From: a bacterium
GTDB taxonomy: Bacteria > Blakebacterota > Blakebacteria > Blakebacterales > Blakebacteraceae
DNA: 12,986 nucleotides
Assembly (NCBI GenBank): GCA_025774615.1
Contig: JALGVQ010000088.1
Location: 1-12,986, forward strand
Direction: 5' to 3'
The translations under genes were made by a program, and so were the position numbers. Shown piece after piece: positions 307-12,634 of the stretch (positions are counted from its first letter, which is position 1; each line of letters starts with the position of its first letter). The notes under the pieces are model-generated. The model was not told where the DNA came from, ran no database searches, and saw only the letters and a program-made list of their open reading frames with translations.

Positions 307-1560
307 ATGGCGAAACAACCACGAATAAAGACAATCACGCGACGCGCGCTCCTGATCGGCTCTCTGGCGCTGATCATCGCGCTGCCGACCGATCGTGCAC
401 GGGCGGCCTCGCCCATACCCTTCCGGCAGGCTGGACAGGACACCGCAAGGGTCATAGATCTATCGGTCCAGAACGTATTCAACCGGCTCTACAGCACCGG
501 CATGCAGTATTACGAACTGCAGGAATACGGCAGTGCCATTCCCTCACTGAAGCGGTGCAGTGAAATAGATTCCACCAACTTCGACATTCTGTATCTGCTC
601 GGTACCTGTTACTACCAGGTCGAGGACCTCGCCTCCGCGATCGGAGCCTTCCAGCAGGTCGTCCGGCAGGACCCGGAAGAGGTGCTGGCGATCCAGAACC
701 TGGCGTCCATCTACTGGGAACAGGGGGATGAAGAGCTCCATACCACCATGTATGAACGACTCCTGAAGCTGCAGCCGGAGAACCCTGAATTTCGCGATCA
801 CCTGCTCGCTCTCTATCAGCGCGCGGGCAACCGGGAAGGGGAGATGCGCCTCCTGCAGGAGCAGGCCGATGACAATCCCGATGATCCCGCCCTGCATCGA
901 CGGCTTGCCGCCCTCCATCGCGAAGGGGGCGACCAGGACGCGCAGATAGAAGCTCTCGAAAACGCCATCCGGCTCGATCCGACAAATCTTCAGAATCTGG
1001 AGCAGCTGGCCAGGATCTACGCCATCGACCTCAACCAGCCGGTCGAGGCTGTTCGGCTCTACGGCATGATCGTGAATGTCCAGCCGGAGAATCCCGTTGC
1101 CTGGCAGATATGGGGCCGGTATCTCACCAGGACAGGGAAAGCGGACAGCGCGGTGGTCGCGCTCCAGCGTTCCCTTGAACTCGATCCCGGACAGGCGGGC
1201 GCCTACAGTGAGCTGGCGCTGGTCCTCTCCGACCAGCAGCGGTACGATGAGGCTGCCTCCTGGATCGAGAAAGCGCTTGAACACCAGCCTGAGGATGCTT
1301 ACGCCTATGTAGCCTGGGGGGATATACTGCAGGCGAAAGCGTTCGACCAGGCGGACGAGGACGGGATAATACCCTACGATGCAAAGATCATCCTCGAAGA
1401 AGCCATCGAGAAGTATCAGAGGGCGCTCGAGCTCGGGGGTGTCTCAGCCGAGATCCTGCGGTATGCCACCGCCGAGGCGGAAAAACTCGAACCGTACCGA
1501 CGGACCCAGGCCGAGATCTTCATGGAGCGGGCGCGCAGACAGATCCCGCCCCGGATATAA
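307..1560 (+). CDS. Exported tetratricopeptide-repeat (TPR) protein
   Basis: 417 residues. Residues 1-33 look like a cleavable signal peptide: basic n-region (KTITRR), hydrophobic core ALLIGSLALIIAL, and a likely cut after ARA (about residue 33). The protein would therefore be periplasmic or surface-facing. From about residue 58 to 375 there are roughly nine degenerate TPR units, for example the A-Y/F spacing and the 'LDP' or 'QPEN' turn at repeat ends (residues 85-92, 155-160, 222-226, 258-262, 291-294, 325-330). TPR arrays are protein-protein scaffolds; no catalytic domain is seen. The ATG at 307 is chosen because it gives the intact signal peptide and no in-frame start lies between it and the upstream stop at 277-279. 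A ribosome-binding site is poor: GGTGAG touches the start codon. Position next to rseP may mean an envelope role, which is inference. No gene name can be given. Confidence 0.85.
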   Translation: MAKQPRIKTITRRALLIGSLALIIALPTDRARAASPIPFRQAGQDTARVIDLSVQNVFNRLYSTGMQYYELQEYGSAIPSLKRCSEIDSTNFDILYLLGTCYYQVEDLASAIGAFQQVVRQDPEEVLAIQNLASIYWEQGDEELHTTMYERLLKLQPENPEFRDHLLALYQRAGNREGEMRLLQEQADDNPDDPALHRRLAALHREGGDQDAQIEALENAIRLDPTNLQNLEQLARIYAIDLNQPVEAVRLYGMIVNVQPENPVAWQIWGRYLTRTGKADSAVVALQRSLELDPGQAGAYSELALVLSDQQRYDEAASWIEKALEHQPEDAYAYVAWGDILQAKAFDQADEDGIIPYDAKIILEEAIEKYQRALELGGVSAEILRYATAEAEKLEPYRRTQAEIFMERARRQIPPRI

Positions 1561-1629
1561 TCCCGACTCCTCTCCGGACACCACTGACGTTACTGGCAGA
1601 GCCGTCCGTAAGGCGGCCGGAAAGATGGT

Positions 1630-2925
1630 ATGACCATGGCACTCCCTGAACCTGCGGCCCAGAGAGCGGCCGAGGCACTCCAGAAGACCGATCCCGAGAT
1701 ATTCGCCGTGCTCCGTGAAGAGGAGAAGCGTCAGCGATCACAGCTCGAACTGATCGCTTCGGAGAACTTCGTCAGTCCGGCAGTCCTCGAGGCGCTCGGT
1801 TCGGTACTGACGAACAAGTACGCCGAGGGTCTGCCCGGAAAGCGTTACTACGGGGGCTGCGAAGTGGTCGACCGGGCCGAGCAGGCCGCGATCGACCGGG
1901 CGTGCGCGCTTTTCGACGCCGAGGGGGCGAACGTCCAGCCCCACTCGGGCGCCCAGGCGAACATGGCGGTCTACCTGGCCTTCATGAAGGCGGGCGATAC
2001 GCTGATGGGCCTGAACCTGTCGCACGGTGGGCACCTGACACACGGGCATCCGGTCAATTTCTCGGGGATCCTCTACAACGTTGTGCAGTACGGGGTCGCT
2101 CCCGAGACCGAGATGATCGACTGGGACGCTTTCGAGAAGATGGCGCACGAGGCGAAGCCTCAGGTGATCGTGGGAGGCGCGAGCGCTTACCCGCGGTCCT
2201 GGGATTTTGAACGGATGCGTAACGTAGCCGATGACGTGGGCGCGAAGCTCGTGATCGACATGGCCCACTTCGCCGGGCTGGTCGCTACCGGGCACCATTC
2301 ATCACCTGTACCGTGGGCAGACGCGGTGACCACCACGACCCACAAGACACTGCGCGGTCCGCGGTCGGGGCTGATCCTCTTCCGTGAAGAGCACGCAAAG
2401 GCGATCAACAGCGCGGTATTCCCCGGCACCCAGGGCGGTCCGCTGATGCACGTTATCGCGGCCAAGGCGGTCGCCTTCAAGGAAGCCTCGACCGAGGCAT
2501 TCGTCGAATACAGCGGCAGGGTCGTCGCGAACGCGGCCGCGATGGCCGAGACCCTCACCGAGCGTGGTGTCAAGCTGGTGAGCGGCGGAACCGACAATCA
2601 CCTTCTGCTGATCGACCTCAGGCCGCAGGGGCTCACCGGCAAGAACATCGAAGCGGTACTCGAATCGGCCGGGATCACGGTGAACAAGAACACCGTTCCC
2701 TTCGATGAGCAGTCGCCCTTCGTAACCAGCGGCATCCGGCTCGGCACTCCGGCCCTGACGACACGGGGTATGCGGGAGGCCGAATTCGAGCAGATCGCCA
2801 CCTTCATCGCCGATATCATCCACGATCCCGAGGGAGAGGCGACCAGAGAGCGGGTGGAGGCGGAAACGAAGGAGATGTGTACCCACTTCCCTCACTTTGC
2901 CTGGGCTGACGGAGTCCCCGATTAA
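1630..2925 (+). CDS. glyA: Serine hydroxymethyltransferase
   Basis: 431 residues, close to the usual 415-430. It converts serine and tetrahydrofolate to glycine and 5,10-methylene-tetrahydrofolate in the cytoplasm, supplying one-carbon units for thymidylate and purines. Clear family signatures are [12 protein letters not shown] (41-52), the KRYYGG stretch (71-76), PHSGAQAN (104-111), SHGGHLTHG (131-139), the PLP-contacting D210 and H213 in VIDMAHFAG, the Schiff-base lysine K239 in [12 protein letters not shown], and [14 protein letters not shown] (367-380). All key residues are intact. Two ATGs compete (1630 and 1636): GGAAAG at 1619-1624 lies 5 or 11 bases away, so either could be used. The stop TAA (2923-2925) is separated by one base from the next gene, which implies co-transcription with the dCMP deaminase and nrdR. 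No strong promoter was recognised in the 69-bp gap upstream. Confidence 0.97.
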
Positions 2926-2926
2926 T

Positions 2927-3415
2927 ATGACAAGTCGTCCCGACTGGCCGTACTACTTCATGGACATCGCCGAACGCGTGGCTCAGCGTTCGACCTGTCC
3001 GCGGCGCGCGGTCGGCGCGGTGATCGTGAAGCAGAAGCGGATCCTCGCGACCGGATACAACGGCGCTCCCTCCGGGATGGACCACTGCGTGGACGTCGGG
3101 TGCCTGATGGTGGATGACCACTGTGTCCGCACCCTGCACGCTGAACAGAACGCCATCATCCAGGCCGCCCAGTTCGGCGTGAGTACCGAGGGAGCCGAGA
3201 TCTACAGCACCAGCAGTCCCTGCCTGTCGTGTGCCAAGATGATCATTAATGCCGGTGTAGAGAAGGTATGGTACACCGAAGGGTATCCGGATGAGACGGC
3301 GTTCCGTTTTCTGAAGGAAGCGGGGGTCGCAGTCGAGCAGATCGATACCGGGATCACGGCGAGCGCGGAGTCTGGAACCGATGAGACCGCGCTCTCCCCA
3401 GGCGAGGGGAACTGA
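2927..3415 (+). CDS. Deoxycytidylate (dCMP) deaminase
   Basis: 162 residues. Zinc-dependent deaminase of the cytidine/deoxycytidylate superfamily, related to Bacillus ComEB and eukaryotic DCTD. It converts dCMP to dUMP, the substrate of thymidylate synthase. The zinc site is complete: H71 and catalytic E73 in HAEQNAI, and C99/C102 in PCLSCAK. The ATGYNGAPSG segment (41-50) is typical of dCMP deaminases and separates the protein from tRNA adenosine deaminase and riboflavin RibD. The ATG at 2927 is preferred to an in-frame upstream start at 2897 because it lies one base after the glyA stop and begins at the conserved RPDWPYYFMDIA start of the domain; GGAG at 2911-2914 is a distant Shine-Dalgarno. 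The last 20 residues (TASAESGTDETALSPGEGN) are polar, poorly conserved-looking tail. The context with glyA and nrdR fits thymidylate and dNTP supply. Confidence 0.93.
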   Translation: MTSRPDWPYYFMDIAERVAQRSTCPRRAVGAVIVKQKRILATGYNGAPSGMDHCVDVGCLMVDDHCVRTLHAEQNAIIQAAQFGVSTEGAEIYSTSSPCLSCAKMIINAGVEKVWYTEGYPDETAFRFLKEAGVAVEQIDTGITASAESGTDETALSPGEGN

Positions 3416-3416
3416 G

Positions 3417-3866
3417 ATGCGCTGTCCCCACTGTGGTGAGAACGATGACAAGGTTGTCGATTCACGGGCGAGCCAGAGGGGTGGTTCGATCCGCAGGCGG
3501 CGGGAGTGTCTCAAGTGTGGAGAACGGTTCACCACCTATGAATACGTGGAGGTGTTCAGTCTCGTATTGATAAAGCGGGACGGCCGACGGGAACCGTACG
3601 ATCGCCGGAAACTGCAGACGGGGATCCTGACGGCATGCATCAAGCGTCCCGTCTCCACCGAACAGATCGATGGGATGGTGCTGAGGATCGAGGCGGCACT
3701 GCAGAATCTGGGACAGCGGGAAGTTGCCGGTCGCGAACTGGGAGACCTCGTGATGCGGGAACTCCGCGCGATCGATCACGTCGCGTACGTCCGGTTCGCG
3801 AGTGTCTATCACGATTTCAAGACGGCTGACGAGTTCCGACAGGAACTCGATCGGCTGTCGGAATAA
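3417..3866 (+). CDS. nrdR: Transcriptional repressor NrdR
   Basis: 149 residues, the usual family length. NrdR senses ATP/dATP through its ATP-cone and represses ribonucleotide reductase genes by binding NrdR boxes. The N-terminal zinc ribbon has C3/C6 (MRCPHCG) and C31/C34 (CLKCGERFTTYE), with the basic DNA-contacting region SIRRRRE between them. The ATP-cone follows from about residue 49 (VLIKRDGRREPYDRRKL) to about 137 (YVRFASVYHDF). The ATG at 3417 begins exactly at the zinc ribbon and has the strong Shine-Dalgarno GAGGGGA at 3404-3410; an in-frame upstream start at 3381 would lie inside the previous gene. It starts two bases after the dCMP deaminase stop, so the two are almost certainly one transcript. 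No ribonucleotide reductase gene lies in the window, so its target sites must be elsewhere. Confidence 0.97.
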   Translation: MRCPHCGENDDKVVDSRASQRGGSIRRRRECLKCGERFTTYEYVEVFSLVLIKRDGRREPYDRRKLQTGILTACIKRPVSTEQIDGMVLRIEAALQNLGQREVAGRELGDLVMRELRAIDHVAYVRFASVYHDFKTADEFRQELDRLSE

Positions 3867-3891
3867 CGGCCCGGGAAGGATCGGCACAGTC

Positions 3892-5340
3892 ATGCCGGAT
3901 GAACCGATCAGCGGAACGATCCTGGTGATCGATGATGAGAAGGGGATCCGGGATTCCCTCCAGCTCGTCCTCGAATACGAGGGGTATCCCGTGCAGAAGG
4001 CGGTGACCGGCCAGGAGGGGCTCGATGCTGTTGAGATGAGCGAACCCCATGTCATCCTGCTCGATGTCAAGATGCCGGGACTCGACGGCATGGAAGTGCT
4101 GGAACGACTCAATCCGATTGAGACCGGACAGGTAGTCATCATGATAAGCGGACACGCTGATATCGCCACTGCGGTGGAGGCAACCCGGATGGGAGCCTTC
4201 GATTTCCTCGAGAAACCGCTCGATCAGGAGAAGGTCCTGCTCACGGTCAGGAACGGCATGGCCAGGGCGATGCTCGAACGCCAGAACAGGCTGTTGCGTA
4301 ACCAGGTAGAGGAACGGTTCACCCTCGTGACGGTGGGCAAGGCGATGGAGTCGGTTCTCGATCAGGTGGCGCGTGTTGCCGCGACCGATACCCGGGTTCT
4401 GATAAGCGGCGAGAACGGCACCGGCAAGGAGCTGATCGCGCGCCGGATCCACGCTCTCTCCGGGCGGGAAGCCTTCCCATTCATCCCGGTCAACTGTGCC
4501 GCCATACCGGGTGAGCTCATCGAATCGGAACTTTTCGGGCACGTGAAGGGTGCCTTCACCGGTGCCTATGCCAACAAGGTGGGGAAGTTCGAGCTGGCAT
4601 CGGGGGGAACACTCTTTCTCGATGAAGTGGGGGATATGAGTCTCCCGGCGCAGGCAAAGGTGCTCCGGGCGCTCGAAGAAGGGGTCGTGGAGCAGGTCGG
4701 CGGCGACCGGGCGATCCGGGTAGACACGCGTGTTGTGGCAGCGACGAACAAGGATCTCGAATACGAGATCGCACAGGGAAATTTCAGGCAGGACCTCCTC
4801 TATCGGCTCCGCGTGGTACCGCTCCATATCCCGCCGCTGCGGGAGAGAAGGAGCGACATCATGCCGCTCTGCGAGCACTTCCTGGCATACTACTGCGCCA
4901 CGAGCAAGCGGCAGTTGACCCTGCCGTTCGGTGAGATACGGGTGATGCTTGAGGAGTATCCCTGGCCGGGAAACGTCAGGGAGCTCCGCAACGCGATGGA
5001 ACGGCTCGTCATCATGAGCGAGGACGACACCATCTCCACCGCGGATGTGGAGGGCGTGCTCGGTCCGGTGTCGGGCAGTCCGGTCGGGGAGGGACCGGAT
5101 GATTCCGAGGTCACCAGGGATCTGCCGAAGGGGATAGAGGGGCTTGCCAGGATGATGGAGGATGAGCCCGATCTTGGCAGGTTCAGGGATGAAGCGGAGA
5201 AGATCTATCTTCTCAGGGTCCTTGAAGAGCACCGGTGGAATGTCAAGGCGACGGCTGACTTCCTCGGTATCCAGCGCTCGAATCTGTACCGGAAACTGGT
5301 GAAGCATGGTATCGAACGAGGCGATATATTGGAGCAATGA
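3892..5340 (+). CDS. NtrX-like sigma-54-dependent response regulator
   Basis: 482 residues in three domains. The receiver domain (about 8-125) has D14/D15, phospho-acceptor D58 in LLDVKMPG, the MISGH segment near residue 84 and K108 in EKPL. The AAA+ activator domain (about 145-385) has Walker A GENGTGKE (173-180), the sigma-54-contacting GAFTGA loop intact (220-225), Walker B around GGTLFLDEVGD (238-248), VVAATNKDL, FRQDLLYRL and YPWPGNVREL. The Fis-type helix-turn-helix lies at about 447-474 (WNVKATADFLGIQRSNLYRKL). The FRDEAEKIYLLRVLEEH linker before the HTH resembles NtrX more than NtrC or AtoC. When phosphorylated it should activate RNA polymerase with sigma-54. ATG 3892 is chosen over in-frame 3802 because 3802 lies inside nrdR and AAGGA at 3876-3880 precedes 3892. 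No histidine kinase is encoded nearby, so its partner is not known. Confidence 0.93.
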   Translation: MPDEPISGTILVIDDEKGIRDSLQLVLEYEGYPVQKAVTGQEGLDAVEMSEPHVILLDVKMPGLDGMEVLERLNPIETGQVVIMISGHADIATAVEATRMGAFDFLEKPLDQEKVLLTVRNGMARAMLERQNRLLRNQVEERFTLVTVGKAMESVLDQVARVAATDTRVLISGENGTGKELIARRIHALSGREAFPFIPVNCAAIPGELIESELFGHVKGAFTGAYANKVGKFELASGGTLFLDEVGDMSLPAQAKVLRALEEGVVEQVGGDRAIRVDTRVVAATNKDLEYEIAQGNFRQDLLYRLRVVPLHIPPLRERRSDIMPLCEHFLAYYCATSKRQLTLPFGEIRVMLEEYPWPGNVRELRNAMERLVIMSEDDTISTADVEGVLGPVSGSPVGEGPDDSEVTRDLPKGIEGLARMMEDEPDLGRFRDEAEKIYLLRVLEEHRWNVKATADFLGIQRSNLYRKLVKHGIERGDILEQ

Positions 5341-5400
5341 TCCCGCGCGGCGGTCCCGATCACGGACCCCGTCCGATCCCGAACACAGGAGTTGAACGAA

Positions 5401-5766
5401 ATGTTCGTCAAGCACGCTGATGAGGAGCCGGTCAACGAGGTTGCCGCCGGTACGAATACCTCGATGCAGGTCCTGGTGAGTTCCGACGAGGGGCCGAATT
5501 TTGCCCTGAGACGCTTCCTCATGGAGCCGGGTGGGGGGATGCCCCTGCATACCAATGCGGTTGAACACGAACAGTACGTGCTTCGTGGAAGCGCCCGGAT
5601 CAGGATCGGAGAGGAGACCTTCGATGTCTCGGCCGATGACGTGACGTTCATACCGGCAGGAGTACCTCACTCCTATGAGGTAACGGGTGATGAACGATTC
5701 GAATTCATCTGCGTGGTACCGAATCAACCTGACACGATCGAACTGGTGGAGGAGTGGGGCTGCTGA
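5401..5766 (+). CDS. Small single-domain cupin, TM1459-like
   Basis: 121 residues forming one cupin beta-barrel. The order of motifs matches the Thermotoga TM1459 type: APNF-like GPNFALRRF (31-39), EPGG (42-45), first metal motif HTNAVEHEQYVLRG (50-63), second motif FIPAGVPHSYEV (83-94), and the ending FEFICVVPNQ (100-109). TM1459 binds its metal with four histidines; the equivalents here are H50, N52, H56 and H90, so one ligand is Asn. The substrate is unknown: such proteins range from dioxygenase-like enzymes to simple metal- or sugar-binding barrels. ATG 5401 has CAGGAG at 5386-5391 (9-base spacing); a TTG at 5392 is too close to it. The gene stands alone between the regulator and the redox operon. 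Whether the upstream regulator controls it is not visible; no sigma-54 promoter was recognised in the 60-bp gap. Confidence 0.85.
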   Translation: MFVKHADEEPVNEVAAGTNTSMQVLVSSDEGPNFALRRFLMEPGGGMPLHTNAVEHEQYVLRGSARIRIGEETFDVSADDVTFIPAGVPHSYEVTGDERFEFICVVPNQPDTIELVEEWGC

Positions 5767-5862: not shown

Positions 5863-5929
5863 ACCTCGATGAAATCGGCGATTCGCACCCTCTGGCAGGG
5901 CTGGAAATTCGACGACGTGAAAGGTGCCT

Positions 5930-6850
5930 ATGGCTACTGGATCGCTGCAGACAGATCAGGATGAGAGAAGCACGGTTGCTGGTATCCTCGAAGCGCATCG
6001 CTCGCGTGGAACCACCGACAGGATCAACCTCGTCTCAGTCCTCGAGGCGATACAGGAAGCCTTCGGATTCATCCCTGAGGGCGCGCTCGATGCCCTCTCG
6101 GAGGAGACGGGTGAGTCGTTCAACAGCCTCTATGGGCTGGCATCCTTCTACAAGTCGTTCTCCTTCAAGCCGAAAGGCAGGCATGTCGTCTCCATCTGCC
6201 TGGGGACTGCCTGCCACGTTCGCAAGTCGCCTGAGCTGGTAGACGAATTCTCGAACGAACTCGGGATCGAACCGGGCGAGACCACCGGGGATAACGAGTT
6301 CACCCTCGAGACGGTCAATTGTGTCGGTGCCTGCGCGCTCGGGCCGGTCGCCGTCATCGACGGAACGTACTATCCGAAATTGAGGCGACCGAAGGTCAAG
6401 GGCATCCTCAAGAATCTGCTGAAGGATGCAGTTGAAGTGGACCTCGCGCACGATCCGCGTGTATTCCCCGTCAGCATTTCGTGTCCGCATTGCGGCCAGT
6501 CGTTGATGGATGGTGAGCGTCTGATAGATGAACACCCCTCATGCCACTTCACCATCGGTCATGACGGTGAGGAGGGAGACCTCTGGCTCTCTGGTCTGTG
6601 GGGGAGCCCGCACGCTCACCTCGACATGGAAGTGCCCGACGGCGCCGTAACCGAATTTTCCTGTCCCGGTTGTCACGCCTCCCTGAAGGCCTCGATCCTC
6701 TGCCCGAAGTGCGAGGCGCCCCAGGTGCCTCTCCTCCTTGCTGAGGGCGGTGCCGCCTCGATCTGTTCGCGGCGGGGATGCGGGGAACATCTTCTCGACC
6801 TCGAGGGAACCACGCTCGATTCCCTCATGATGAAAATAGACGATCGATGA
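5930..6850 (+). CDS. nuoE: NuoE-like [2Fe-2S] subunit with Cys-rich C-terminal extension
   Basis: 306 residues, about twice the usual 160 of NuoE. Residues 15-165 are the thioredoxin-like [2Fe-2S] domain: the helical start ends IQEAFGFIPEGAL (41-53), then LYGLASFYKSF, and the cluster ligands C90/C95 (CLGTAC) and C131/C135 (CVGAC). In complex I and HydC-type enzymes this domain passes electrons to or from the NuoF flavin. Residues 180-306 are an added module with zinc-ribbon-like pairs: CPHC (185-188), C205 with nearby His, CPGC (245-248), CPKC (258-261) and C279/C284 in CSRRGC. I have an impression of similar tails on other NuoE-like proteins but cannot verify it. ATG 5930 is chosen because AAAGG (5920-5924) is well spaced; an in-frame GTG at 5924 overlaps that site. 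The stop overlaps the nuoF start as ATGA, showing translational coupling. Confidence 0.9.
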   Translation: MATGSLQTDQDERSTVAGILEAHRSRGTTDRINLVSVLEAIQEAFGFIPEGALDALSEETGESFNSLYGLASFYKSFSFKPKGRHVVSICLGTACHVRKSPELVDEFSNELGIEPGETTGDNEFTLETVNCVGACALGPVAVIDGTYYPKLRRPKVKGILKNLLKDAVEVDLAHDPRVFPVSISCPHCGQSLMDGERLIDEHPSCHFTIGHDGEEGDLWLSGLWGSPHAHLDMEVPDGAVTEFSCPGCHASLKASILCPKCEAPQVPLLLAEGGAASICSRRGCGEHLLDLEGTTLDSLMMKIDDR

Positions 6851-8760
6851 TATTCGCCACACCAACGGACCTGAAGAACCATATCGAGAGCCTCTCTGCC
6901 GGCACCGGAGCGGGGGAGAAGCCGACCCTGGTATTGTGCGCCGGAACCGCCGGACAGGCCAGCGGCGCCAATGACGTCCTCAGGGTCGCCAAGCGCCACA
7001 TCATGGAAAACGGTCTCCACGACCGGATATCCCTGCGGATAACCGGGTGCCAGGGATTCTGTGAAATGGATCCCTTCGTGATCATCGATCCGGGAAATCA
7101 CCTCTATCCCCAGCTCGGCATGGATGACATCGGCCGGATCATCGACTCGGCCATCGAAGGGCAGGTCGTCGAAGATCTGCTCTACCGCGAGCCGGAGGAG
7201 GAGAAGAGGTACGAACACAAGGAAGAGATCCCCTTCTTCAAGGATCAGGTACGCACGATCCTGGGACGGAACGAGCATGTCGATCCTCTCCGGATCTCAG
7301 ACTACTTCCGCCAGGGTGGCTACGGCCCGCTGGCGAGGGTGCTCGATGATCCCGATCCGGAATGGGTCATCGGGGAGATCGTGAAGTCGGACCTGCGCGG
7401 CCGGGGTGGCGCGGGCTTCCGGGTCGGCGCCAAATGGCGCATGGCCCGCGATAACGGCGATGATTCCGGTCCCACCTACCTTGTCTGCAACGCAGACGAG
7501 GGGGATCCCGGCGCGTTCATGGACCGGTCGATCCTTGAGGGGAACCCCCACCTGGTCATAGAGGGAATGGTGATCGCTGCCGTGGCGATCGGGGCCAGTG
7601 AAGGATTCATCTTCGTCCGCACCGAATACCCGCTGGCTATCAAGCACGCCACGGTCGCCCTCCAGCACGCGCGCAACCACGGCCTGCTCGGCAGGAACAT
7701 CCTCGGCAGTGGTATCGACTTCGACATCGAGATCATCCGGGGCGCGGGAGCGTATGTCTGCGGGGAAGAGACCGCTCTGATCGCCTCGATCGAAGGGCGT
7801 CGCGGCATGCCGCGGCCCCGTCCTCCCTACCCGGTGGTGAGCGGATTGTGGGGACGACCCACCTGCATCAACAACGTCGAGACGCTCGCCAACGTCCCCG
7901 TGGTTATCGAGAAGGGGGGCGATGGGTACGCCGAGATAGGCGTCGAGGGCAACCGGGGTACGAAGATCTTCTCCCTGGTCGGCAAGATCCGCAATACCGG
8001 TCTGGTCGAGGTGCCGCTGGGCATCCCGATCAGAAAGGTCGTCTACGATATCGGCGGGGGAGCTCCAGAGGGCAAGAAGGTCAAGGCGGTGCAGACCGGC
8101 GGGCCCTCAGGCGGGTGCATCCCCGAGGAACTCTTCGATCTGCCGATCAGTTTCGACAGTCTGGTGGAAGCCGGCTCGATCATGGGTTCGGGCGGATTGA
8201 TCGTGATCGATGAAGACACCTGCGTCGTTGATCTGGCCAAGTACTTCTTAACCTTCACCCAGGAAGAGAGCTGCGGCCAGTGTCCGCCGTGCCGGGTGGG
8301 CAGCCGGGCCATGCTGGTATTGCTCGACAGGATCACGGGCGGCACCGCGACCATGGAGGATCTCGACAAACTCGAACAGCTTGCCACTACGGTTCGTGAG
8401 ACATCCCTCTGCGGTCTGGGCAAGAACGCGCCAAATCCGGTCAGCACGACACTGCGCTACTTCCGGGACGAGTATATCGAGCATATCGAGAAGGGGCAGT
8501 GCCGGTCATTCACCTGCAAACCACTGATCAGGTATTACGTCGACGCCGAGCGCTGCAACGGCTGTGGAGCCTGCCTCCGGGCGTGCAATGATGAAGCCGT
8601 CATCGGGGAACCGAAACAGCTCCATGAGATAGATCAGGAACGCTGTGTTCAGTGCGGGAACTGTTTCGTCGCCTGCCCGGAGAGTCTTGCAGCGATCTAC
8701 CGGACGAGCGGCGAGTTGACCCGCCATGAAGAGCCGAAGAAAAAAGTGAAGAAAGCGTGA
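6847..8760 (+). CDS. nuoF: NuoF-like NAD(H)/FMN subunit with N- and C-terminal Fe-S domains (HydB/HndC type)
   Basis: 637 residues, the length of HydB/HndC-type subunits rather than the about 430 of plain NuoF. Residues 25-105 are a second thioredoxin-like [2Fe-2S] domain, but only C31, C68 and C72 of the four ligands are present (position 36 is Gly). The flavin/NAD core (about 150-470) has GRGGAGFRVGAKW (184-196), NADEGDPGAFMDR (215-227), and GAYVCGEETALIASIEGRRG (301-320). The N3-type [4Fe-4S] site has C476, C479, C482 (SCGQCPPCR) and C522 (SLCGLG). The C-terminus carries a 2x[4Fe-4S] ferredoxin: C570/C573/C576/C580 and C600/C603/C606/C610. It ends in a Lys-rich tail (EEPKKKVKKA). It should exchange hydride between NAD(H) and FMN and feed the Fe-S chain. 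ATG 6847 overlaps the preceding stop; earlier in-frame starts lie within the upstream gene. Confidence 0.93.
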   Translation: MIFATPTDLKNHIESLSAGTGAGEKPTLVLCAGTAGQASGANDVLRVAKRHIMENGLHDRISLRITGCQGFCEMDPFVIIDPGNHLYPQLGMDDIGRIIDSAIEGQVVEDLLYREPEEEKRYEHKEEIPFFKDQVRTILGRNEHVDPLRISDYFRQGGYGPLARVLDDPDPEWVIGEIVKSDLRGRGGAGFRVGAKWRMARDNGDDSGPTYLVCNADEGDPGAFMDRSILEGNPHLVIEGMVIAAVAIGASEGFIFVRTEYPLAIKHATVALQHARNHGLLGRNILGSGIDFDIEIIRGAGAYVCGEETALIASIEGRRGMPRPRPPYPVVSGLWGRPTCINNVETLANVPVVIEKGGDGYAEIGVEGNRGTKIFSLVGKIRNTGLVEVPLGIPIRKVVYDIGGGAPEGKKVKAVQTGGPSGGCIPEELFDLPISFDSLVEAGSIMGSGGLIVIDEDTCVVDLAKYFLTFTQEESCGQCPPCRVGSRAMLVLLDRITGGTATMEDLDKLEQLATTVRETSLCGLGKNAPNPVSTTLRYFRDEYIEHIEKGQCRSFTCKPLIRYYVDAERCNGCGACLRACNDEAVIGEPKQLHEIDQERCVQCGNCFVACPESLAAIYRTSGELTRHEEPKKKVKKA

Positions 8761-8767
8761 GGCGGAC

Positions 8768-10399
8768 GTGAAGATCACCCTGAATGGAACGAGCGTGACC
8801 GCCTTTGAGGGGGAGAACGTCCTGGAGGTAGCCCTGCGAAGTGGTGTCGACATCCCGCACCTCTGCTACCACCCGGTAATGCCCAGCATCGGCGCCTGTC
8901 GTATGTGCCTGGTCGAGATCGACGGCATCAACGGATATCCGGCTTCCTGTACAACAACGGTTGCCGACGGCATGGTGGTTCGAACCCGTACCGAGGCCGT
9001 CCGTGACCGCCAGCGCGAGAACCTGGAACTGATCCTGCTCGAACATCCCTCATCCTGTCTTGTCTGTTACAAGAAAGAGGCGTGTCAGCTCTTCCGGCCC
9101 GATAAGGAGAAAGCGGGAACGACGACCGGATGCCAGAGCTGCAGCAACAAGCACGACTGTGAAGTACAGCGACTGACGGTCGAGCTCAACGTCACCAGCC
9201 TGCCGGTTGGCAGCTTCTATCGCAACGTCGAGCCGATCCGTACCGATCCCTTCATCGAGAACGATCCGAACCTCTGTATCCTCTGCGGACGGTGTGAACA
9301 TATCTGCAGGCATCATCACGAATCACCGGTCATCGTCTTCACCGGACGGGGCCCCGATGCGAGGGCCGGCCAGGCGTTCGACCATACCCTGAGCCAGACC
9401 GGGTGCCGGTTCTGCGGTTCGTGCGTCGATCTCTGTCCCACCGGCTCACTCGCTGAACGTTTTGCCAAGTGGTACGATCAGCCCGAACACACCTTCGAAA
9501 CCACCTGTGCCTTCTGTGACGCCGCCTGCGCCCTGACGGTCATGGAGACCGAGGGACGGGTGTTCTCAGCGGCCGGCCTCGACCAGAAGTTGCCGATCTG
9601 TGTCCTCGGCCGGTTCACAATCCCCTATTTCCTGAGCAGCCGTGACCGCCTCACCCATCCCGAGATCAAGGTGGGAGAGGTAATGCGTGAGGTGTCGTGG
9701 GAGGCTGCCTTCGAGAAGGCGACCGCGATCCTCACACCGTTGCGAGGCGAGGCCTTCGCATTCGTCTGCGATCGATCGGGCACCGTGGAGGATCGACTGG
9801 CCGCCAGGACATTCACCGAAGAGGTGATGGGGTCAACACACTACATCGAGATCGAGGATGGCGAAGACGCCACCCCCGTGAAGCTGCCTGATGGAGTACG
9901 GGCGGTCATGCTGACCGGAGATTTCGTCGATAGAAAGACACTTGCCGGACTGGACGCGGTCGTTATGCTCGACTGTTTCCCGACAGAAGCTGGTGGTGAG
10001 GCGACTGTCCTTCTTCCCGCCGCGGTTCTGCTCGAAACAGCGGGACACATGGTCGATGAGACCGGAACCGAACGTCCGATGGTGAAGTGCGCCAGGGCGC
10101 CCGGGCAGGCGAGGCAGGACTGGGAGATCATCTGTGGACTCATCAGCGCCATGGGGGATGAGGAGAGAGCCGGGGGGCTGGCCGATGAGATCGCCGCGCG
10201 GATCGATGGTTCTGACGCGGTAATAGTGGTCGACCGGCAGCGGGCTCCCGACCCAGCCCTCGATATCACGAAGATCAGGACCCGTTATCGCGGCCACGTG
10301 ATCGCTGAGCGGGTACCACCCCTTCAGGAAGTACAAACACCCAGGGGTGCAACAACCGAGGAAGCGCTTTCGGAGGTGTCGACGTGTTCAGAGTGCTAG
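8768..10399 (+). CDS. nuoG: Compact NuoG-like Fe-S subunit with a truncated, apparently non-catalytic molybdopterin-fold end
   Basis: 543 residues, against roughly 700-900 for NuoG or formate dehydrogenase. In order: plant-type [2Fe-2S] (C33, C44, C47, C61); His-Cys region (H93, C97, C100) with an insert containing C106, C122, C125 and then C131 in CEVQ; two [4Fe-4S] motifs (C170/173/176/180 and C213/216/219/223); and a molybdopterin-oxidoreductase type [4Fe-4S] motif (C247, C250, C254, C278). After residue 280 only about 260 residues remain. They retain the late segment LLPAAVLLETAGHMVDETGTE-like (415-435) and QDWEIICGLI of the fold but lack room for a Mo-cofactor site. The H-cluster motifs of [FeFe]-hydrogenase are absent, so it is not HydA. 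The role is probably an electron wire from NuoF to another acceptor. Start GTG 8768 has GAGG at 8759-8762. It ends with a Cys pair (C540, C543) and overlaps the next gene by 16 bases. Confidence 0.88.
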   Translation: MKITLNGTSVTAFEGENVLEVALRSGVDIPHLCYHPVMPSIGACRMCLVEIDGINGYPASCTTTVADGMVVRTRTEAVRDRQRENLELILLEHPSSCLVCYKKEACQLFRPDKEKAGTTTGCQSCSNKHDCEVQRLTVELNVTSLPVGSFYRNVEPIRTDPFIENDPNLCILCGRCEHICRHHHESPVIVFTGRGPDARAGQAFDHTLSQTGCRFCGSCVDLCPTGSLAERFAKWYDQPEHTFETTCAFCDAACALTVMETEGRVFSAAGLDQKLPICVLGRFTIPYFLSSRDRLTHPEIKVGEVMREVSWEAAFEKATAILTPLRGEAFAFVCDRSGTVEDRLAARTFTEEVMGSTHYIEIEDGEDATPVKLPDGVRAVMLTGDFVDRKTLAGLDAVVMLDCFPTEAGGEATVLLPAAVLLETAGHMVDETGTERPMVKCARAPGQARQDWEIICGLISAMGDEERAGGLADEIAARIDGSDAVIVVDRQRAPDPALDITKIRTRYRGHVIAERVPPLQEVQTPRGATTEEALSEVSTCSEC

Positions 10400-11193
10400 G
10401 TAACCGCAAGGTCACCCCGAATGCCCACGAGATGATCGTGGAGGCGCCTGAAGTCGCCCGCAAGGCGCAGGCGGGGCAGTTCGCGCTCCTCATGGTGAAC
10501 GAGCACTCCGAGCGTATCCCCTACACGCTCTCCGACTGGGATAAGGAGGCGGGATCGGTGACCTTCATCGTCCTGGAGGTCGGCAAGTCGACCAGTGATT
10601 TCGTGCGTCTCCAGCCGGGTGATGAAGTGGCCCATGTCACGGGGCCTCTGGGGATGCCGCTCGAGGTCGACAATTTTGGAACCGTCGCCCTGATCGGCGG
10701 CTGTTACGGGCTCGGTGGTGTGGTTCCGGTGGGACGGACGATGAAGGCGGCCGGAAACCGCGTGATCACATTCGTGGAAGCCCGCATGGAGGGAATGCAC
10801 TACTACCTCGACAAGTATGAATCCTTCTCCGACGAGGTCGTTCAGACAACCACCGACGGCTCGAACGGCATCAAGGGGCACGGTGTCGACATCCTCGAGG
10901 CAAGGCTGAAAGAAGGGGTGCAGGTCGATCGCGTCTTCGCCGTGGGCTGCCCCTTCATGATGATGATCACCGCCCAGTTGACACAACCGTACGAGATCAA
11001 GACATTCGCTGCTCTGAACCCGATCATGCTCGACGGGACCGGCATGTGCGGGGCGTGCCGCTGTACGGTCGGCGAGGAGACAAAGTTCGCCTGTGTGGAT
11101 GGACCGTTCTTCGATGCCCACCTTGTGGACTGGCATGAACTGAGGGACCGCCGCGCGGCCTATATCCGTATCGAACGGGACGTGTGCAAGTGA
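10384..11193 (+). CDS. nfnA: NfnA/SudB-like FAD- and NAD-binding [2Fe-2S] subunit
   Basis: 269 residues, normal for the family related to PyrK, NfnA and sulfide dehydrogenase beta. It has the ferredoxin-reductase fold: FAD-binding RIPYTLSD (44-51), the GDEVAHVTGPLG turn (79-90), nucleotide-binding GGCYGLGGVVPV (105-116), and a C-terminal [2Fe-2S] site. In PyrK the cluster motif begins with Cys; here that place is D217 in LDGTGMCGACRC, followed by C222, C225 and C237. To my knowledge an Asp ligand is a mark of NfnA rather than PyrK, and no pyrD lies beside it. It would carry electrons between NAD(H) and the NfnB flavin. Start GTG 10384 has an excellent Shine-Dalgarno, GGAGGTG at 10372-10378, inside the upstream gene. 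The stop overlaps a downstream GTG (GTGA). Confidence 0.9.
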   Translation: MFRVLGNRKVTPNAHEMIVEAPEVARKAQAGQFALLMVNEHSERIPYTLSDWDKEAGSVTFIVLEVGKSTSDFVRLQPGDEVAHVTGPLGMPLEVDNFGTVALIGGCYGLGGVVPVGRTMKAAGNRVITFVEARMEGMHYYLDKYESFSDEVVQTTTDGSNGIKGHGVDILEARLKEGVQVDRVFAVGCPFMMMITAQLTQPYEIKTFAALNPIMLDGTGMCGACRCTVGEETKFACVDGPFFDAHLVDWHELRDRRAAYIRIERDVCK

Positions 11194-11284
11194 CCGACAA
11201 GAAACCAGCAGAGCTGAACAGGCTCCTGAAGACAGGAAGTACAACTACGACGAGGTTACCTTCGGCTACTCCGAAGAAACCGCC
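11190..11284 (+). other. Displaced N-terminal coding segment of the nfnB-like gene (apparent one-base frameshift)
   Basis: A GTG at 11190, overlapping the previous stop as GTGA, opens with MTDKKPAELNRLLK, then turns into low-complexity sequence (TGSTTTTRLP...) and stops at 11286-11288. In the frame used by the downstream protein, the bases from 11231 read DRKYNYDEVTFGYSEETAM, which is what family members carry before the first Cys cluster. The two frames meet at 11229-11231 (AAG) and 11231-11233 (GAC). One missing base, most simply a G, would rejoin them. This is either a sequencing/assembly error, a real mutation, or less likely recoding. Confidence 0.75.
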
Positions 11285-12634
11285 ATGATCGAGGCCGCGC
11301 GCTGCCTGGCCTGCAAGAAGCCGAAATGCGTAGCGGGCTGTCCGGTCAATATCGATATACCCAGCTTCCTGCACCTCATCGAGGAAGGCAAATTCGTCGA
11401 GGCGGCGCAGAAGATCAAGGAGACCAACCCGTTGCCTGCGGTCTGCGGCCGCGTCTGCCCGCAGGAGGAGCAGTGCGAGAAGGTCTGTGTCCTGACGATC
11501 AAGCATGAGTCGGTGGCCATCGGGCGTCTGGAGCGGTTCGCCGCGGATTATGAGCGGAATGCGGGGAAGATCAAACTCCCCGAGATAGCGGAAAAGACCG
11601 GCAAGAACGTGGCCATCGTCGGGGCAGGACCAGCCGGGCTCTGCGTCGCGGGTGACCTTATCATAGCCGGTCACGAGGTCACGGTGTTCGAGGCGCTCCA
11701 GAAGCCGGGCGGAGTGCTCATGTACGGCATACCCGATTTCCGCCTCCCCGAAGAAATCATCAATGCCGAGGTGCAGACACTCAGCGATCTCGGAGTGAAC
11801 TTCAGGTACGATTACGTCGTCGGGCGTAACGACACCATCCCGGAGATGCTGGCCGGTGACTTCGACGCGGTCTTCATCGGCAGTGGAGCGGGGCTCCCAT
11901 CCTTCCAGGGGATACCGGGTGAGAACCTGATCGGTGTCTTCTCGGCCAACGAATACCTGACCCGTGCCAACCTGATGAAGGCATACCGCTTCCCCGAATA
12001 CGACACACCGCCTATCGAAGCCGGACACGTGACCACGATCGGCGGCGGGAACGTCGCCATGGATTCGGCCCGGACCGCCCTCCGCCTGGGCAGTCGTTCC
12101 ACCATCGTCTACCGTCGCGCCAGGGAACAGATGCCGGCCAGGGACGAAGAGATCCATCACGCCGAGGAAGAGGGGATCAAGTTCAACCTGCTCACCAACC
12201 CCACGAAGATACTGGGAAACTCCAGACGTGAAGTCATCGGCATGGAGTGCATCCGCATGGAACTGGGCGAGCCGGATGATTCAGGTCGCCGTCGACCGGT
12301 CCCGATCGAGGGATCGGAGTTCGAGATCGAGTGCGACGCCGTGGTCGTCGCGATCGGCAACAAGCCGAACCCGCTCATTCCCCAGACCATGGAGGGGCTC
12401 GAGCTCACCCGCTGGGGCACCGTCGTCACCGAAGAACACACGATGCAGACTTCGGTAGAAGGGGTGTACGCAGGCGGAGACATCGTCTCGGGCGCCGCGA
12501 CCGTCATCTCGGCAATGGGGCAGGGCAAGGTCGCCGCCCGGGCCATGGATCACTACCTGAGGACCGGGAAGAATCCTGATCCGCCGCCTCCTCCCCCTCC
12601 TCCGAAAGAGAAATCGAAGAAGAAGAAGGAGTAG
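11285..12634 (+). CDS. nfnB: NfnB/GltD-like FAD and [4Fe-4S] pyridine-nucleotide oxidoreductase
   Basis: 449 residues from ATG 11285, the only start in this frame; about 32 N-terminal residues are displaced by the frameshift just upstream. The family is the glutamate synthase small-subunit type, which includes NfnB, SudA and the archaeal 'GltA'. The N-terminal domain carries two [4Fe-4S] sets: C7/C10/C15/C19 (RCLACKKPKCVAGCP) and C54/C58/C64/C68. The first dinucleotide-binding motif is VGAGPAGLC (112-120, FAD); the second is GGGNVAMD (253-260, NADP(H)), followed by VYRRAREQMPAR. A third FAD contact is YAGGDIVSGAATVISAMGQGK (395-415). In Nfn enzymes this subunit holds the bifurcating FAD and reacts with NADPH and ferredoxin. 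The absence of a glutamate synthase large subunit and the adjoining NfnA-like gene favour the Nfn reading. The tail is unusual: eight prolines then KEKSKKKKE. Confidence 0.92.
   Translation: MIEAARCLACKKPKCVAGCPVNIDIPSFLHLIEEGKFVEAAQKIKETNPLPAVCGRVCPQEEQCEKVCVLTIKHESVAIGRLERFAADYERNAGKIKLPEIAEKTGKNVAIVGAGPAGLCVAGDLIIAGHEVTVFEALQKPGGVLMYGIPDFRLPEEIINAEVQTLSDLGVNFRYDYVVGRNDTIPEMLAGDFDAVFIGSGAGLPSFQGIPGENLIGVFSANEYLTRANLMKAYRFPEYDTPPIEAGHVTTIGGGNVAMDSARTALRLGSRSTIVYRRAREQMPARDEEIHHAEEEGIKFNLLTNPTKILGNSRREVIGMECIRMELGEPDDSGRRRPVPIEGSEFEIECDAVVVAIGNKPNPLIPQTMEGLELTRWGTVVTEEHTMQTSVEGVYAGGDIVSGAATVISAMGQGKVAARAMDHYLRTGKNPDPPPPPPPPKEKSKKKKE

Follow-up and report, generated by a model that had tools for sequence, protein, structure and literature searches.

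Five neighbouring plus-strand genes in the 12,986-nucleotide stretch of DNA analysed here (the window) probably encode a single soluble complex of the Bfu (HydABC-like) type, with a modified Nfn pair in the place of the hydrogenase. We favour this reading because the gene order is conserved, NuoG and NfnA are fused in five genomes, and a private clade of modified NfnA co-occurs with NuoF and NuoG; the domain content of the five genes and the loss of NAD motifs in NfnA complete its observed basis.

The genes fill window positions 5924-12634, each abutting or overlapping the next in our ORF survey. All five products scored above the Pfam cut-off, and Pfam and NCBIfam assigned NuoE, NuoF, a NuoG-like protein, a NfnA-like protein and NfnB, bearing out the trio and pair of domains that an initial annotation had read from the sequence. 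The first gene (5924..6850, +) encodes a NuoE/BfuC (HydC, StnA)-like protein (PF01257, 1.1e-40) and may begin at GTG 5924 or at ATG 5930, the start chosen in that annotation. The nuoF ORF opens at 6778, with a likely start at ATG 6847 that overlaps the nuoE stop, and its NuoF/BfuB (HydB, StnB)-like product (6847..8760, +) matches PF01512 and PF10589. Next come a truncated NuoG/BfuA-like gene (8768..10399, +), assigned by Pfam and by conservation of its ligand Cys and His residues, which is without a catalytic Cys-His motif; a NfnA-like gene (10384..11193, +; PRK06222, 1.2e-96) that overlaps nuoG by 16 bases; and a GltD-like nfnB (11194..12634, +; TIGR01316, 1.1e-172; 4ylf_B, 1.5e-145) whose 5′ end lies in another frame. 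ATG 11285, previously taken as the NfnB start, is not the true one: the frame is open upstream, and the homologous same-genus protein starts overlapping nfnA. Because this upstream frame matches the same-genus NfnB, a one-base shift, be it an assembly error or real, lies near 11190-11230. Window positions 307-5766 hold genes for a TPR protein, glyA, dCMP deaminase, nrdR, a sigma-54 response regulator and a cupin, none of them obviously part of the enzyme.

Conserved gene order and NuoG-NfnA fusion

NfnA was searched for over 386 genomes, neighbourhoods of the matches were compared, and named genomes were scanned in addition. The order NuoE-NuoF-NuoG-NfnA-NfnB, whose conservation the initial annotation had proposed as a check, recurred in at least about 20 additional genomes spread over six or more bacterial phyla and, in part, in archaea; a genome of the same genus (G001) has it as well. 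Among the matches listed, the set occurred in Planctomycetota (among them the single-record chromosome CP070827.1), Hydrogenedentota, Bacteroidota, Verrucomicrobiota, WOR-3, Thorarchaeota and, within Thermodesulfobacteriota, Desulfocapsaceae, Desulfobacteraceae and Desulfobulbaceae; drawn from best matches only, this taxonomic spread is a lower bound. The NfnA genes most like that of the window were preceded by NuoE-NuoF-NuoG and followed by NfnB, apart from some contigs that ended inside the set, and most other NfnA genes among the best matches from the 386 genomes stood alone with NfnB. Chance adjacency of the five genes is ruled out, as both the order and the NfnA signature recur in many phyla. 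Nor did NuoEFG regularly adjoin a different catalytic subunit among the closest homologues, an arrangement that had been named in advance as evidence against a joint enzyme.

NuoG and NfnA form a single ORF of 829-848 aa at five loci (L091, L093, L110, L114 and L115). In the tree, four of the fused NfnA group together and that of L110 lies apart, nearer the window NfnA, so the fusion represents one or two events. Such fusions are strong sequence evidence that the unfused pair would also associate. Pairwise-distance correlations were 0.72 for NuoG-NfnA, 0.73 for NuoG-NfnB and 0.68 for NfnA-NfnB, the links to NuoG being equally strong. An AlphaFold prediction of the fused NuoG-NfnA, given three sequences as input, reached a pLDDT of 50, too low for the model to be of use. 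As for the host, the list of relatives of the window genome passes from two same-family genomes straight to the same domain, and the lineage looks isolated at high rank.

A private clade of modified NfnA

The most informative new fact of the locus is its modified NfnA. The initial annotation had counted both Nfn subunits as present, which holds for the canonical NfnB and for the fold of NfnA; NfnA is nevertheless not ordinary, since its NAD(H)-site motifs have been replaced (C107, E132 and C189 in the window protein). It keeps the FAD motif ERxPxT and the Asp-Cys3 set for one [2Fe-2S] cluster. GGGxG has become GGC[YF]G and GPxxM has become GC in all NfnA of this clade, and GAR...D has mostly become EAR...Y/F; these changes never occurred in the ordinary NfnA of the aligned set.

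Across an alignment of 115 NfnA sequences (two being duplicate entries of the same locus), positions 107 and 189 were Cys/Cys or Gly/Pro without exception. With duplicates removed, both cysteines were present in 27/27 modified versus 0/86 ordinary NfnA. C107/C189 NfnA occurred at 26 of 29 loci with NuoF and NuoG upstream versus 2 of 86 others, a comparison in which the modified sequences form one clade and are non-independent. The context accounts for the two of the 28 Cys-form rows that are without upstream NuoF and NuoG: one row repeats a cluster locus in short form, and the other is a locus with NuoF downstream. Support for the clade of 27 Cys-form sequences was 100/98, with an SH-aLRT of 87 when the motif columns were left out. 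Further strongest differences were E132 for Gly, mostly Tyr/Phe137 for Asp/Glu, loss of Asp157, and Phe/Tyr191, and nearly all sites most divergent from ordinary NfnA fell in the NAD domain.

The AlphaFold model of NfnA (pLDDT 88) has the Nfn fold (Z 37 to 5jca_S) and places C107 and C189 each at the start of a helix that follows a NAD-domain beta strand. FNR-type proteins use their GGGxG and GP loops to bind the NAD pyrophosphate, and these loops meet the nicotinamide end; because these are the loops altered here, the usual NAD(H) binding of modified NfnA is probably lost or changed. One subunit, NfnA, is visibly re-fitted for the proposed partnership. Five cluster-bearing genomes also contain an ordinary NfnA beside NfnB, and the ordinary and modified forms are therefore not interchangeable. 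The Cys/Glu signature provides a simple sequence test separating ordinary Nfn from the cluster form, a difference to which automatic annotation is blind: the window NfnA matches the general NCBIfam model PRK06222.

Archaeal and exceptional loci help to define what this subunit accompanies. In Methanothrix harundinacea UBA1 (L211:3274-9498), a formate transporter and a formate dehydrogenase alpha subunit (FdhA) with catalytic CHAS are followed by NfnB and, between FdhA and NfnB, a modified NfnA; NuoEF is absent from this stretch, which may encode a formate-linked Nfn. Another modified NfnA of Methanothrix follows NuoE-F-G with no NfnB adjoining, and a third copy stands alone, so partnership with NfnB is not strict. 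Since Methanothrix copies follow either FdhA or NuoG, modified NfnA tracks a NuoG/FdhA-type subunit as its common partner. L126 (Chloroflexi) is the sole E-F-G-A-B set with ordinary NfnA and a separate NuoG; its G subunit is a formate dehydrogenase with CHxP present, ordinary nfnAB follows, and the two may be independent enzymes. L175, an exception to the NfnA rule, has its NuoG match ~5 kb away. At L102:148-6380, a further exception, a Stn-like E-F-(NuoG+GltD) set is directly followed by ordinary nfnAB.

Predicted iron-sulfur wiring of the five subunits

Our recount of motifs in NuoE, NuoF, NuoG, NfnA and NfnB agrees with the ~12 Fe-S clusters first proposed. All four ligand Cys of the NuoE [2Fe-2S] cluster are present and invariant in 19 aligned sequences. 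NuoE also carries a Cys-rich, zinc-ribbon-like C-terminal extension of ~140 aa (aa 180-308), absent from the initial annotation and kept in the same-genus genome. At a Bacteroidales locus (L121:9349-9729), a 293-aa two-copy homologue of this extension adjoins ordinary nfnAB, hinting at an Nfn-linked accessory domain.

NuoF contains an N3-type [4Fe-4S] site (C499/C502/C505/C545), a C-terminal ferredoxin-like domain for two [4Fe-4S] clusters, a Zn-site Cys pair and an FMN/NAD site, with its ligand Cys conserved in aligned relatives; an N-terminal [2Fe-2S] cluster is doubtful, three of four Cys being left. The alignment with its best PDB match, 7t2r_B (BfuB of NiFe-Bfu; E 1.4e-212), spans most of NuoF and takes in the C-terminal double [4Fe-4S] region. 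The subunit and cluster features of the Bfu family are found here: a BfuB with FMN domain, N3-type cluster and two C-terminal [4Fe-4S] clusters, a BfuC [2Fe-2S] subunit and, in NuoG, the at least two ferredoxin-type [4Fe-4S] clusters of a BfuA. At four loci (L091, L108, L109 and L110), a second GltD-like domain replaces the C-terminal ferredoxin domain of NuoF and has a reduced Fe-S motif, so electron routing must vary among loci. The same replacement, again with a reduced Fe-S motif, is seen in NuoF of L048 (G001:C53). The window genome itself contains a second HydBC-like set (L037:9312-14073, contig C318), perhaps a further Bfu variant, in which NuoE and NuoF are joined by a HoxU-like protein and a glutamate-synthase-domain protein (PF01645).

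In NuoG we found five full motifs, for a [2Fe-2S], a His-ligated [4Fe-4S], two [4Fe-4S] and one [4Fe-4S] of the Mo-type domain, and an additional invariant C122-C125-C131 triad. All Fe-S ligand Cys and His are invariant in 22 aligned sequences (the window NuoG and 21 relatives). The molybdopterin part is truncated and catalytically dead: the catalytic CHxP, present in L126, is missing from the window NuoG and every other G protein of the alignment (21 in all). The claim that NuoG has neither a hydrogenase nor a Mo catalytic end proved correct, with PF02906 and CHxP both absent. A formate dehydrogenase at the window locus is ruled out by the missing Cys-His motif, and an [FeFe]-hydrogenase HydABC by the missing H-cluster domain (PF02906), the sole copy of which in the window genome sits on another contig. 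NfnB keeps both [4Fe-4S] motifs (RCx2Cx4Cx3CPV and GRVCPQExQC) along with its flavin Arg and NADP motif, judged against the Nfn reference motifs of PMC6405883.

Proposed mechanism and alternative readings

For the complex as a whole we infer physical assembly in the host, an electron route, its direction and its stoichiometry along the following lines. NuoE and NuoF would supply the NAD(H) site, the FMN/Fe-S bifurcating core and a ferredoxin-facing C-terminal domain, and NuoG would be a pure Fe-S wire. NfnA would serve as a FAD/[2Fe-2S] adaptor exchanging electrons with NuoG and not with NADH, and NfnB would handle NADP(H) on its canonical FAD, its two [4Fe-4S] clusters perhaps offering a second exit to ferredoxin. 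Overall, the enzyme would reduce NADP+ with NADH and reduced ferredoxin, or run in reverse. Were only NuoF or only NfnB to bifurcate, the reaction would be as in Stn and Nfn, with 1 NADH to 1 two-electron ferredoxin equivalent; were both to do so, arithmetic on the assumed route would have about three quarters of the electrons reaching NADP+ come from ferredoxin. Two bifurcation centres in series (NuoF FMN/Fe-S and NfnB FAD), joined via NuoG and a NfnA with a paired-cysteine site, are a tentative and rather doubtful extension; if true, the enzyme would draw a larger ferredoxin share than Nfn or Stn and could push NADPH to lower potential.

Anaerobes balance NADH, NADPH and ferredoxin by a few bifurcating enzymes. 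Besides complex I and an [FeFe] hydrogenase, the window genome has Rnf-like genes and several pyruvate/2-oxoacid oxidoreductase-type genes, and its 82% complete assembly yielded no further nfnAB; this content fits a ferredoxin-based anaerobe needing an NADPH source.

The locus might instead hold two enzymes in one operon, NuoEFG (Bfu) with another partner and a self-standing ordinary Nfn transhydrogenase. Each half is known as an enzyme in its own right, redox genes are often grouped in bacterial operons, L126 looks exactly so, and the host yielded no second nfnAB; yet this is unlikely given the NuoG-NfnA fusions, the tie of modified NfnA to a G subunit, its replaced NAD motifs and the five genomes that keep ordinary nfnAB in addition. 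The modified site also invites a different function, as a new active site: C107 and C189 would be redox partners next to the FAD and react with a disulfide or another acceptor of high potential, NfnAB would bifurcate NADPH to ferredoxin and this acceptor, and NuoEFG would supply or draw on the same pool. The strict confinement of both cysteines to modified NfnA (27/27 versus 0/86) would suit this, as would their modelled position at helix starts, where FNR-type GGGxG/GP loops meet the nicotinamide end. P. furiosus NfnII, moreover, is an Nfn without NAD use (PMC6405883, PMC8097209). We nonetheless hold such a function improbable, NuoG fusion and co-inheritance already accounting for the loss of the NAD site.

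Stn is assembled from the same modules, and no bifurcation takes place at its GltD-like FAD (PMC10482914), which raises the prospect that here, too, only NuoF bifurcates, with NfnB a plain NADPH module and NfnA a mere linker. We give this little credence: the Fe-S ligand changes typical of Stn are absent, NfnB retains the full Nfn motifs, and a NfnA with its [2Fe-2S] cluster, missing in Stn, is retained. The joint NuoEFG-NfnAB complex first suggested in the initial annotation is well supported by the conserved order, the NuoG-NfnA fusions and the private NfnA clade with its remodelled NAD site. It would represent a third transhydrogenase architecture, shared by Planctomycetota, Bacteroidota, sulfate reducers and archaea, would explain genomes that contain both the set and ordinary Nfn, and would open the chaining of two bifurcating sites in one enzyme to testing.

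Comparison with known systems

In the literature searched, mainly that outside subscription journals, we found no description of NuoEFG and NfnAB as one enzyme, and Nuo partners go unmentioned in the Nfn review (PMC6405883). The initial expectation that HydABC cores normally end in a hydrogenase or formate dehydrogenase, and that Nfn normally works alone, needs qualifying, as the Bfu family and Stn already show other outputs. Both are close precedents for a NuoEFG-Nfn enzyme: the Bfu family includes HydBC cores that serve other outputs, and in Stn a NfnB-like domain is already attached to NuoEFG.

Nfn (NfnAB; 5jca, 4ylf) shares the NfnB motifs, the NfnA fold, the FAD motif and the Asp-Cys3 [2Fe-2S] motif; it differs in that window-type NfnA has replaced NAD(H)-site motifs, its genes are tied to NuoEFG, and NfnA is fused to NuoG in five genomes. 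P. furiosus NfnII/Xfn (5vj7) is an Nfn paralogue whose NfnA-type subunit likewise no longer uses NAD, but it has no Cys pair in the aligned loops and is not known to have a NuoEFG partner. Its acceptor is one other than NAD (PMC6405883, PMC8097209). Bfu types 2/3 (NiFe-Bfu HydABCSL, 7t2r; Bam-Bfu) resemble the window set in having a BfuB/BfuC core and a BfuA fed by extra subunits. Bam-Bfu adds a second bifurcating module (HdrA), the only such combination found in the accessible part of PMC9304861; the third module here is NfnAB, which is absent from the partner types given in that part.

The nearest known enzyme is Stn (StnABC; also Nfn-Bfu or NfnABC of Thermococcus sibiricus), which has a NuoEF-like core, NuoG-like clusters and an NADPH-binding GltD/NfnB-like FAD domain. 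Its design is different: it has three genes, GltD and NuoG are fused in one protein, NfnA is lacking and the Fe-S ligands are changed (PMC10482914, PMC7483475). In Stn the FAD-proximal cluster is altered, with Lys for Glu, and the ligand set of the GltD-like part is reduced; the window NfnB, by contrast, is canonical with a full set, and NuoG and NfnB are separate genes in the window and its relatives instead of the single polypeptide of StnC.
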